In this document: piece by piece, positions 21,640-57,062 of the stretch
Layout of the letters: each line of letters starts with the position of its first letter
Position numbering within the stretch: position 1 is the stretch's first letter
DNA from: a bacterium
Lineage (GTDB): Bacteria > Deinococcota > Deinococci > Deinococcales > Deinococcaceae
Direction of reading: 5' to 3'
DNA: 64,000 bases
NCBI GenBank assembly: GCA_021810505.1
Contig: JAJZIR010000001.1
Coordinates: 186,001 to 250,000, forward strand
Notes under the pieces: model-generated
What the model saw: the letters and a program-made list of their open reading frames with translations, nothing else
Databases searched by the model: none
What the model was told of the DNA's origin: nothing
Position numbers and translations under genes: made by a program

Positions 21640-21927
21640 TCAGCTGCGCAGGAGCCGTACGATACGGTTCACCTCGGCGGGATCGATCGCTCCTTGCTGC
21701 TGGCAACCTTCTAGGTAATCGGAGAGCACTTTCTCCCCAGCTGCGTCCAAGGCCCTGCGGACCCCGATGAGCAGAGTGAGAACCTCTCCGCAGGGCCTTT
21801 CCGCCTCGATCATCCTCCGGAGCCCGCGAAGTTGCCCTTCGGCGCGCTTGATCCGGTTGAGGATCCGCCGCCTCTCCTCGCCGCGCAGTAGCTCTTGCTC
21901 CTGGGGAGCGGCCTCAGCCCCTGGCAC
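21640..21927 (-). CDS. CsoR/RcnR-family repressor, CstR-like (Cys-Tyr-Cys)
   Basis: A 95-residue all-helical DUF156 repressor. The family core is RILNRIKRAEGQLRGLRRMIEAERPC. Copper-sensing CsoR uses Cys, His and Cys spaced 25 and 29 residues apart; here these are Cys46, Tyr71 and Cys75. Loss of the histidine argues against Cu(I) and resembles CstR, which senses persulfides by linking its two cysteines. It is the last gene of the DUF302-disulfide reductase-repressor operon, starting (GTG) one base after the previous stop. Its likely operator is the inverted repeat at 23128-23170. Confidence 0.88.
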   Translation of the reverse strand: MPGAEAAPQEQELLRGEERRRILNRIKRAEGQLRGLRRMIEAERPCGEVLTLLIGVRRALDAAGEKVLSDYLEGCQQQGAIDPAEVNRIVRLLRS

Positions 21928-21928
21928 G

Positions 21929-22597
21929 CTAGGCTGCAGAGGTTGCGCGGAGTGCGGCTTCCAGGAAAGCTCGCTCGGGCTGCCCCCCTAGCACCCGTTC
22001 GGTGCGCTTTCCGGAGACGATGGTGTCGGGGACTCCGCGGATCTGCCAGCGCTCGGATAGCCCGGGGAACTCGCTGGCCTGAGTCCCGATGGCCAGCACT
22101 TGGGGGTGGTGGTAGGCGAGGCGGTAAGCGGTCAGCACTGCCGAAGGGCAGTAGGGGCAGGTCGGAGTGACGAAGGTCTGCAGGGTCAAGGGGCCGGCGA
22201 TAGCACTCAGCTCCCTCTGGAGCTGGTCCGATAACCCGCTCTCTCCAGTCCCCAGCATGACCAGGGCTTCGATCAGGGTGCTGAACTCATATCCGCTCGG
22301 CAAGCCCAGGAACCGCAGGTTGTCGCGTGCGCTCCCACCTTCGCGGAGCAGCGTGGTCGGAGCGCGGTCGATACCCAAGGCCTGCGCCTTTTCGGATCCC
22401 AGCGACTCTTGAATCAGCCGCAACTGGGGGTTGAGCTGCGCCACTTCTCTCAGGAGTTCCACCGTTTCGGCTTGGTGTCCAGTCTCCCGTCCGGGGAGCT
22501 GCAGGGCGGTCGTGAACACCACCATCTCGACGTCGTATCCGATGGGGGCCAGCAACTCTTGTACTTTCTGTGCGGTCTTCTGGTCAAGATAAGCCAT
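21929..22597 (-). CDS. Protein disulfide oxidoreductase (tandem glutaredoxin/thioredoxin fold)
   Basis: A 222-residue protein of the PDO family: two thioredoxin-like halves. The C-terminal half carries the redox motif TPTCPYCPSAV (about 143-153) and the cis-proline RGVPDTIVSG near 188. The N-terminal half (residues 1-110) has the fold pattern (VEMVVFTTAL, IDRAPTTLL) but no CxxC, so only one half should be redox-active. Such proteins reduce protein disulfides or persulfides. ATG with AGGAGATC upstream. Middle gene of the repressor operon. Confidence 0.85.
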   Translation of the reverse strand: MAYLDQKTAQKVQELLAPIGYDVEMVVFTTALQLPGRETGHQAETVELLREVAQLNPQLRLIQESLGSEKAQALGIDRAPTTLLREGGSARDNLRFLGLPSGYEFSTLIEALVMLGTGESGLSDQLQRELSAIAGPLTLQTFVTPTCPYCPSAVLTAYRLAYHHPQVLAIGTQASEFPGLSERWQIRGVPDTIVSGKRTERVLGGQPERAFLEAALRATSAA

Positions 22598-22654
22598 GCC
22601 GATCTCCTAAACGCCGGGGCGATGTGAAACCAGATACCCAGGGGATTGCTGGGA

Positions 22655-23092
22655 TCAAGCAGAGCTCGCAGCTAGGATATCCCGCACTCGCTGCAGCTTC
22701 TCTCTGGCTGACCTCGCCAGGTGGGCCGCCTCGGGAAGCTGTAGTACTGCGAGCATGACCTCTGGGTCGACGAATTCTACCTGGAAGGAGCCAGGGCCGA
22801 GCGCCCGGATGACGACGTTGCAAGGGAGGAGCAAGCCGGCGTCCACCTCCAGGTTCAGGAGCTGGTCCGCCAGGGCGGGGTTGCAGGCTCCCAGGACTCG
22901 GTAGTCGGCCATCTCCTTGCCGAGTTTCCGCTGCATGGTCGCAGCTACGTCGATATCGCTCAAGACTCCGAACCCCTCTCGGTGTAGGGCTTCGGTGACG
23001 ATTTCCACCACCTGGTCTAATTCCCCTGACAGGGTTATTCCAAACCCGTAGCGGGGCTGCGGGGGCTTTTCGGTTGCCGACGGGTAGTGCAT
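22655..23092 (-). CDS. DUF302 family protein
   Basis: A 145-residue DUF302 protein: the domain spans YGFGITLSGELDQVVEIVTEALHREGFGVLSDIDV (about 15-50) and the hallmark KLGKEMADYRVLGACNPALADQLL (about 56-80), ending with a short helical tail. The family has no firmly known biochemical role but recurs with sulfur and heavy-metal resistance genes. I place the start at the ATG behind GGAGGGAATC; a GTG four codons upstream is the alternative. First gene of the operon, directly downstream of the inverted repeat. The conserved ACNP cysteine could be a thiol sensor or carrier; that is conjecture. Confidence 0.85.
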   Translation of the reverse strand: MHYPSATEKPPQPRYGFGITLSGELDQVVEIVTEALHREGFGVLSDIDVAATMQRKLGKEMADYRVLGACNPALADQLLNLEVDAGLLLPCNVVIRALGPGSFQVEFVDPEVMLAVLQLPEAAHLARSAREKLQRVRDILAASSA

Positions 23093-23110
23093 GATTCCCT
23101 CCACCCCAGC

Positions 23111-23116
23111 AGGTTA
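23111..23116 (-). promoter_or_regulatory. Candidate -10 box of the DUF302 operon
   Basis: TAACCT on the minus strand about 20 nt before the DUF302 ATG. Seventeen nt upstream the -35 position has no good match and falls near the edge of the 43 bp inverted repeat, as expected for a repressed promoter. Confidence 0.35.
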
Positions 23117-23127
23117 TCACTTCTTTG

Positions 23128-23170
23128 ACGAGATTTCCATATACCCCCCATGGGTATATGGAAATCTCGT
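23128..23170. promoter_or_regulatory. 43 bp perfect inverted repeat, probable CsoR/CstR operator
   Basis: Arms of 19 bp, ACGAGATTTCCATATACCC (23128-23146) and its exact complement (23152-23170), separated by 5 bp. The centre, ATACCC-CCCAT-GGGTAT, has the form of known CsoR/CstR operators, in which a G/C tract is flanked by A/T. It lies between the DUF302-PDO-repressor operon and the divergent KirBac gene and could control both. The arms are AT-rich compared with the genome. A terminator is unlikely because both neighbours are transcribed away from it. Confidence 0.75.
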
Positions 23171-23256: not shown

Positions 23257-24255
23257 GTGAACCGGGCGCAGCCTCCCAACCCTGGGCAGCCCGAGGAGGA
23301 TTTGGGCCTTGGGCGGATCATCGCTCAGGAGAGCGGTCAGCGGCTGGTCGAGCCGGATGGTCGCCTGGGGTCTAACCGGATCGGTTTGCAGTTCTGGCCC
23401 TCGCTCAACCTCTATCACCACCTAATTGGCCTGCCCTGGTGGGTTTTCTTATCGCTGCTCGCCCTGCTCTTCCTATCCGTCAATGCTGCGTTCGCTACCC
23501 TGTACCTCTGGACCGGTTCCCTCTCGCTCTACGCCTCGCCGAGGCTGGGATTTGTTGGCCTGTGGCTGAAGGACTTCTTTTTCAGCGTCGAGACGCTAGC
23601 CACCATCGGCTACGGCCAGATTTATCCCGTGACGGTGCTGTCGAACCTGGTGATGACCGCGGAGTCCTTTCTGGGATTGCTGGGCCTCGCTGTCGCCACC
23701 GGCCTAGTTTTTGCCCGCTTTGCTAGGCCCAAGCAGCGCATCCTCTTCAGCCGCTCAGCCCTGATCGCCCCCTACGGCCAAGGCCGTGCCCTGATGTTCC
23801 GCATCGTCAACGGCCTGCGCACCCAAGTGATCGACCTGGAGATTCGGGTGGTATTCACGCTCTTTAGAGATGACCACGGGGCCCGGGTACGCCATTTCCA
23901 CACCCTGGAGCTGGAGCGAGCTTACGTCCCGCTGCTCCCCGGCCCCCTGACGGTTGTACACCCGATCGGGCCGGAGAGCCCACTGGCTGCTCTGGACCCA
24001 GGGTTCTTGCGATCCGGCGAGGCCGAGTTCCTAGTCCTGCTGTCGGGTTTGGATGACACGCTGTTCCAGCCGGTGCGGGCCCGCGCGTCCTATCTGTGGT
24101 CTGACCTGGTGTGGGGGGCGCGTTTTCGGAGCATGTTTGTCCACGCAGCCGGCCACCTGGTGACCGACGTCCGCCTACTGAACGACGTCGAGTTGCTGGC
24201 AGAGCCACCTGCCGCCCCTCCCGTGCGCGCTCAGGAAGGCCCCGGCCCGCTGTAG
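23257..24255 (+). CDS. Inward-rectifier potassium channel, KirBac family
   Basis: A 332-residue channel: cytoplasmic slide helix (NLYHHLIGLPWW, about 51), first membrane helix (62-83), pore helix and selectivity filter TLATIGYG (about 113-120), second helix (VMTAESFLGLLGLAVATGLVFARFARP) and a C-terminal immunoglobulin-like Kir domain from about residue 155, with RIVNGLRTQVIDLEIRVVF and LELERAYVPLL blocks. Length agrees with KirBac. GTG start; GAGGGG upstream is a modest ribosome site. It conducts K+ across the inner membrane. Divergent from the CstR-like operon and sharing its intergenic operator. Confidence 0.92.
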   Translation: MNRAQPPNPGQPEEDLGLGRIIAQESGQRLVEPDGRLGSNRIGLQFWPSLNLYHHLIGLPWWVFLSLLALLFLSVNAAFATLYLWTGSLSLYASPRLGFVGLWLKDFFFSVETLATIGYGQIYPVTVLSNLVMTAESFLGLLGLAVATGLVFARFARPKQRILFSRSALIAPYGQGRALMFRIVNGLRTQVIDLEIRVVFTLFRDDHGARVRHFHTLELERAYVPLLPGPLTVVHPIGPESPLAALDPGFLRSGEAEFLVLLSGLDDTLFQPVRARASYLWSDLVWGARFRSMFVHAAGHLVTDVRLLNDVELLAEPPAAPPVRAQEGPGPL

Positions 24256-46695: not shown

Positions 46696-47088
46696 TTGCA
46701 GCAGCCTGAGCTGAGCGGTCCAGCCGCAGCGGCGGGGGCCTGTCCCCGCTGCCAAGGGAGCGGCGTCCCCTTGTCTTCCCTTCCCCCTGCTTCTAGGCCC
46801 CCGCCGCTGCGCTTCCCGCCAAGGCCGGCGCGTTCTTGGCCGGCCTTGGCGGGATTGTTGGCCCTGGAGCTGCTTTTGGCTCTTCTGACGCCCCTTTCAG
46901 GCCGTGGCGCTCTGGGAATCGCCGCCGTCACCCTTGCCTTGGCCGGCCTGGGCTGGCTCCGGGTTGCAGCGGTCCGCAGCTACAACAGCCGGGTCTGGCC
47001 CCAGCGGCTGCGCCGCTGGCAGCAGACGCTGGTCTGCAGCCGCTGCGGCCAAGTTTGGGCTGATTCTGGAGAACAACCGCAGCCTTGA
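46696..47088 (+). CDS. Small membrane protein with split zinc-ribbon cysteines
   Basis: A 130-residue protein of unknown function. The N-terminus has CPRCQGSG (about 16-23) and the C-terminus CSRCGQVW (about 113-120), with two hydrophobic segments between them (about 48-66 and 71-88). The two CxxC knuckles could come together on the cytoplasmic side as one zinc ribbon. The frame opens at a TAG at 46690, so only TTG 46696 or CTG 46693 can start it, with a weak AGGT upstream; TACAGT at 46633-46638 could be its -10. Convergent with the lipoprotein gene. Confidence 0.6.
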   Translation: MQQPELSGPAAAAGACPRCQGSGVPLSSLPPASRPPPLRFPPRPARSWPALAGLLALELLLALLTPLSGRGALGIAAVTLALAGLGWLRVAAVRSYNSRVWPQRLRRWQQTLVCSRCGQVWADSGEQPQP

Positions 47089-48773: not shown

Positions 48774-48799
48774 CGCTCTACTCTGACACGCCCGGTGAC

Positions 48800-48830
48800 A
48801 GCGTCCCCGGGGAATCTCCCCGGGGACGCT
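48800..48830. terminator. Strong hairpin downstream of hsp20
   Basis: AGCGTCCCCGGGGA, a 3-nt loop and its exact complement give a 14 bp perfect stem between the hsp20 stop and the truB start. No T-run follows on either strand, so it may stabilise the hsp20 mRNA 3' end or act as a Rho-assisted or intrinsic U-less terminator. Confidence 0.5.
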
Positions 48831-48842
48831 GGGCCGCGGCGC

Positions 48843-54310: not shown

Positions 54311-57062
<2,752 letters not shown>

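Follow-up and report, generated by a model that had tools for sequence, protein, structure and literature searches.

Introduction

The CsoR-family repressor described here resembles CstR of Staphylococcus and Streptococcus, to which we take 7MQ1 (annotated as CsoR in the PDB) to belong, in its two cysteines, in a residue other than His at the copper-ligand position (Asn in 7MQ1) and in its predicted sulfur targets; it differs by a low sequence similarity, by a separate position in a tree of few columns and by its other target genes. ScCsoR (SCO0620) of S. coelicolor possesses two cysteines, is released by polysulfide from a site of the form ATACC-N6-GGTAT and regulates a persulfide dioxygenase, a rhodanese and a sulfite exporter (PMC7533328). 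A two-cysteine repressor of the same family and an ATACC/GGTAT palindrome are found at our locus as well, but there the spacing is N7, the middle sensor residue is a Tyr, DUF302 and a protein disulfide oxidoreductase (PDO) are encoded in the operon and no dioxygenase gene is adjacent. The closest studied protein of the Deinococcota, TTHA1953 of Thermus thermophilus, responds to disulfide formation and not to NaHS, shows no metal response, has TACNNTACNNNNGTANNGTA as published consensus and targets Sox genes located far from its own gene (PMC10318464). It is, like our repressor, a CsoR-like protein with a sulfur regulon and two cysteines 29 residues apart, but it is by inference of the C-F-C type and its consensus differs from our operator. 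Finally, the SUL module of an Arthrobacter plasmid (PMC6305408) and its Rhodococcus and Streptomyces relatives carry DUF302 alongside a CsoR regulator, as does our operon; they contain in addition a sulfur dioxygenase, rhodaneses and TauE, and the aligned actinobacterial repressors have a Gly at the middle position.

We have analyzed a 64-kb stretch of DNA, hereafter the window, from a 2.3 Mb, 98% complete genome of the Deinococcota, kin to Thermus and Truepera, whose order includes Thermus, Meiothermus and the Trueperaceae, the relatives named below from a genome scan. On its minus strand, genes encoding DUF302, the PDO and a CsoR-family repressor with Cys46-Tyr71-Cys75 (C-Y-C) follow each other in this order. 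Judging from sequence comparison, we propose, with a probability of about 0.7, that they form an autoregulated sulfane-sulfur (persulfide/polysulfide) stress operon of a CstR-like kind.

Results

Organization of the operon and of its surroundings

The palindrome and the three-gene operon described in an earlier note on this DNA were both found in place. The palindrome, ACGAGATTTCCATATACCC-CCCAT-GGGTATATGGAAATCTCGT, is perfect over 43 bp (23128-23170), with 19-bp arms and a 5-nt centre CCCAT, and its central part (23140-23158) reads TATACCC-CCCAT-GGGTATA, where the C-Y-C repressor is predicted to bind. The DUF302 gene (22655-23104, 149 aa; GTG start at 23104, alternative in-frame ATG at 23092) starts about 24 bp from the palindrome edge, reading downstream along the minus strand, and is followed after 57 nt by the gene of the PDO, a tandem thioredoxin-fold protein (21929-22597), and, after 1 nt, by the repressor gene (21640-21927). 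This spacing suggests that the three genes are co-transcribed. In the gap between DUF302 and PDO, a consensus scan revealed a weak terminator-like hairpin (22637-22653, minus strand), which may be an attenuation element. Within the operon, no second operator better than 3 mismatches was detected, and a consensus scan of the window promoter gave no good sigma-70 match. On the plus strand, a divergent gene encoding an inward-rectifier K+ channel (23257-24255; PF17655, 65.3 bits) has the palindrome-bearing upstream region in common with the operon, and might use the operator region jointly with it.

No sulfurtransferase (rhodanese), persulfide dioxygenase or SQR gene, one of which would be expected in a CstR-like operon, was found here. 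The earlier remark that sulfurtransferase and SQR are missing is thus true of the operon but does not hold for the system as a whole, since sulfurtransferase, SQR or persulfide-dioxygenase-like genes adjoin the orthologous modules of relatives, and rhodaneses occur on three contigs of the host genome. One of these rhodaneses is fused to an ArsR domain, and next in the row come DsrE and an SQR-like flavoprotein, the latter so assigned by similarity to a model with a score below its cut-off (L232, 2720-4903, G000:C26); no core operator is nearby. A metallo-beta-lactamase (MBL)-rhodanese persulfide dioxygenase was not found in the host genome. The host's thioredoxin reductase, rhodanese and ArsR-rhodanese/DsrE/SQR loci were devoid of operators worth noting, which places the host sulfide oxidation genes outside the operator-marked regulon.

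The operator core recurs at sulfur genes of the Deinococcota

The core was searched for as TATACCC-N5-GGGTATA with at most 1 mismatch, the reversed pattern being used as control. It was matched in 71 of 111 Deinococcota genomes, the control in 13. Among 61 relatives it was present in 34, corresponding to 20 of the 22 in which the window repressor has a close homologue versus 14 of the 39 in which it has none (Fisher p 3e-5, genomes being treated as independent despite their kinship).

Domain assignments at the operator loci were verified on representatives. The core lies directly upstream of PDO-rhodanese-CsoR operons in Meiothermus (L152-L158) and of PDO-CsoR operons in Trueperaceae (L159, L160). 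These share with the window operon the operator, an orthologous PDO (57-60% identity), a C-Y-C repressor and the gene order; they differ in that rhodanese replaces DUF302 (Meiothermus), that the operator is directly upstream of PDO and that there are no long arms. SQR operons and MBL-rhodanese/TauE operons are also preceded by the core, as are PDO or MBL-rhodanese genes in Thermus and Marinithermus, an SQR-like gene in one Trueperaceae genome, and thioredoxin reductase in Thermus and in one genome of the same family as the host, in which a core divergent from MBL-rhodanese was found as well (L118, L119). As is typical of CstR-like sensors, the site at sulfur genes consists of a G/C-tract flanked by ATA and TAT. 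At several loci of the relatives, the right TATA of the core reads as a -10 box, with a TTGAC or TTGCG -35 about 17 bp upstream; because the right half of the core overlaps the -10, a bound repressor would be expected to occupy the promoter.

In Thermus (L034, L035, L036-L038), the core was found at PDO/MBL-rhodanese and thioredoxin reductase genes, and the CsoR-family proteins recovered were C-H-H and C-F-C. Operator and fingerprint are thus not strictly coupled, as Thermus has the operator without a C-Y-C protein.

Sensor residues and genomic neighbours of the repressor

The repressor belongs to the CsoR/RcnR (DUF156) family (PF02583, 72.1 bits for a cut-off of 22.8). Alignment confirmed that it has Cys46, Tyr71 and Cys75 in place of Cys-His-Cys, as had been read from the sequence in the earlier note. 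It therefore lacks the ligand set of copper sensors (Cys-His-Cys or Cys-His-His) and presents the two conserved cysteines without His ligand which characterize CstR-like proteins. Over the fetched loci, 39 fingerprints were C-Y-C, 20 C-H-H, 7 C-F-C and a few of other types. Sulfur genes were found within 3.5 kb of 23 of the 39 C-Y-C homologues, the operator at 29 and CopZ at none, these counts being lower bounds owing to short flanks. The C-H-H homologues had CopZ in 19 cases out of 20, usually with copA as well, and the operator in none; this contrast is descriptive, as retrieving loci through the operator or the window proteins enriches the sample in those very genes. The genes adjoining C-Y-C homologues encode PDO, rhodanese, MBL-rhodanese, SQR and TauE. 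Such a partition, with C-Y-C going with sulfur genes and operator and C-H-H with copZ, agrees with the proposal that the repressor is unlike a copper sensor and, together with the recurrence of the operator, lends support to its being CstR-like.

In the tree, the C-H-H proteins formed a well supported clade, which includes the second CsoR of the host genome, itself C-H-H and accompanied by copZ and copA. The window repressor grouped with the C-Y-C proteins of the Trueperaceae G023 and G035 (support 96/93), though its branch is long and the alignment short, and 7MQ1 fell outside that group, on a long branch of a tree with few columns. In other Trueperaceae loci (L333-L338), CsoR-family proteins had the Cys pair without intervening Tyr or His, and their gene was beside or overlapping a thioredoxin-like gene.

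Alternatively, the repressor may be a general thiol-oxidation switch like TTHA1953, for which the signal would be an inter-subunit disulfide formed by peroxide or other oxidants, and the operon a disulfide-repair unit made of PDO and DUF302. TTHA1953 loses DNA on oxidation and responds to neither NaHS nor metals (PMC10318464), the core also precedes thioredoxin reductase, and the window operon is without sulfurtransferase, all of which would suit such a switch. However, where the flanks were of sufficient length, most C-Y-C homologues adjoin genes for rhodanese, SQR, MBL-rhodanese or TauE, proteins that deal with sulfane sulfur or sulfite rather than with disulfides, and we consider this alternative unlikely.

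PDO and DUF302

The PDO scored 198 bits against the TIGR02187 equivalog (cut-off 185). As the earlier note had anticipated from its single active site, alignment showed that the N-terminal CxxC is lost and that only the C-terminal CPYC remains of the two CxxC motifs. This one-site state is common to the operator-linked subfamily, while Thermus keeps the N-terminal CxxC. The host thioredoxin reductase, which is 65% identical to the operator-linked thioredoxin reductase of a relative, is a plausible reductant of the PDO.

DUF302 matched PF03625 (76.6 bits) and 1J3M/TT1751 (E 4e-22), and its Cys74 (GACNP) and Cys95 (LPCNV) were invariant in 17 DUF302 sequences from Deinococcota, Actinomycetota, Pseudomonadota and Haloarchaea; Pfam match and cysteines alike thus assign the protein to this family. 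A second, more divergent DUF302 is encoded in the host genome (G000:C16:137133-137315). In the literature, no reported DUF302 function was found despite the solved structures 1J3M and 1Q9U; in the papers retrieved, DUF302 is mentioned in passing, in sox clusters and in the Arthrobacter SUL module (PMC6305408).

In the two Trueperaceae G023 and G035, the operator is directly upstream of a DUF302 gene whose product is 42-48% identical to that of the window, and this is the sole operator match of either genome (up to 1 mismatch). The four other genomes examined from their genus possess a CsoR of another type and gave no operator match. Among plasmid DUF302 neighbourhoods, 6 of the 16 inspected (Rhodococcus, Streptomyces, Arthrobacter) contained a CsoR-family gene together with MBL and TauE, two Rhodococcus ones being near copies. 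On another Arthrobacter plasmid, DUF302 was found with MBL, rhodanese and TauE, and the published description of this plasmid includes a CsoR gene (SUL module, PMC6305408). An operator-like site is also located just upstream of a CsoR-DUF302 pair in Arthrobacter Hiyo8. The pairing of operator and DUF302 in two Trueperaceae and the actinobacterial plasmid clusters support the view that DUF302 probably belongs to the regulon.

As a caution, DUF302 recurs in copper clusters too, in Thermus, Meiothermus, Corynebacterium and Dinoroseobacter. In L127, L108, L125 and L329, the DUF302 gene of a copper cluster was near genes for a P-type ATPase, a multicopper oxidase, or Met-rich or SHOCT proteins. We suggest tentatively, as a possibility that we hold to be somewhat doubtful, that DUF302 is the principal effector of the CstR-like response, acting on sulfane sulfur as a carrier, reductase or sink of a new kind (and perhaps handling Cu(I)-thiols as well), with the one-site PDO and thioredoxin reductase recharging it, while the 43-bp element could also act as a two-way promoter-operator driving the K+ channel gene.

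A copper-responsive operon, in which DUF302 would handle Cu(I) and the repressor would sense copper as CsoR does, would fit the location of DUF302 near copA, a multicopper oxidase gene or a copper-type CsoR gene in Thermus, Meiothermus, Dinoroseobacter and Corynebacterium, and its two invariant cysteines, which could bind Cu(I). It was rejected as the main reading and appears very improbable: a Tyr replaces the copper-ligand His of the repressor, none of the 39 C-Y-C homologues is beside CopZ, the host has a separate C-H-H CsoR with copZ and copA, and the operator is absent from C-H-H loci. No copper export genes are present in the operon.

The long arms of the palindrome

No other perfect short-loop inverted repeat in the 64-kb window is as long as the palindrome with its 19-bp arms, the runners-up having arms of 16 and 15 bp. 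By arithmetic, chance would produce a perfect 19-bp arm, with a single spacing allowed, about 2e-7 times in 64 kb; if a 7-bp operator half-site is taken for granted, the probability that 12 more pairs match perfectly is about 6e-8. When about 45 distinct sites were lined up, symmetry was extended by 12 perfect bp at the window site alone; these extra 12 bp were absent from all of the about 45 other operator sites compared, where no more than about three symmetric pairs adjoined the core without interruption. The lengthened arms exceed what chance would give, yet the extension lies outside the conserved operator. The 43-bp perfect repeat proposed as operator is thus real and its core is of the CsoR/CstR type, but conservation is limited to the central 19 bp and the repeat as a whole is therefore unsupported as a conserved operator. 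Absence of the repeat from orthologous loci, which had been named in advance as an argument against the proposal, was observed for the arms but not for the core.

The extension may have arisen by template-switch correction of a quasi-palindrome, or possibly by selection for a symmetric two-way promoter toward the divergent K+ channel gene; there is no clear -35 box beside the extended palindrome. A dispersed palindromic repeat was discarded, the palindrome having a single copy in the genome (search allowing up to 3 mismatches) and its arm sequence occurring nowhere else in the window, as was a known RNA element, for lack of an Rfam match. Other perfect short-loop inverted repeats of the window, G+C-rich, are located at 46814-46854, 48799-48831 and 57004-57038 (arms of 16, 15 and 14 bp).

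That the palindrome is mainly an RNA hairpin, an attenuator or a mobile palindromic unit with an incidental likeness to an operator is the least probable explanation: folded as RNA, it would be highly stable (-52.7 kcal/mol, z -6.3), and its 12-bp outer arms are unique to the window site, but its core is a phylum-wide operator, it is neither repeated in the genome nor matched in Rfam, and judging from the relatives, transcription would begin within the right arm, leaving an mRNA without the full hairpin.

Discussion

For a sulfane-sulfur stress operon, the following mechanism can be envisaged. A tetramer of the C-Y-C repressor would bind the central TATACCC-N5-GGGTATA, covering the spacer and the -10 region, without need of the outer 12 bp of each arm. 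Sulfane sulfur or another thiol oxidant would modify Cys46, probably with Cys75 of the neighbouring subunit, and release the repressor. The PDO, re-reduced by thioredoxin reductase, would then act on persulfidated or disulfide-bonded proteins, stripping them of sulfur. DUF302, a presumably cytosolic protein with two invariant cysteines, may handle sulfane sulfur or shield thiols beside the PDO. Several observations stand against this reading: TTHA1953 responds to disulfide formation instead of NaHS and has another consensus, Thermus has the operator without a C-Y-C protein, DUF302 also occurs in copper clusters, the window promoter has no good sigma-70 match, and the place of the repressor in the tree depends on a short alignment, in which it forms a long branch. 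Because sulfurtransferase, dioxygenase and SQR are missing from the operon and its chemistry is deduced from sequence, we keep it apart from CstR proper.

The type of circuit is already known from CstR and ScCsoR, and the window operon has its operator and repressor clade in common with putative circuits of this type elsewhere in the Deinococcota; what is new is the partnership with DUF302 and the symmetric extension of the operator. The proposed operator and the sensor-residue rule (C-Y-C versus C-H-H) separate sulfur from copper regulons of the CsoR family across the Deinococcota. DUF302 is repeatedly placed under putative sulfane-sulfur repressors in two phyla, which provides a concrete and cheaply testable hypothesis for this family.
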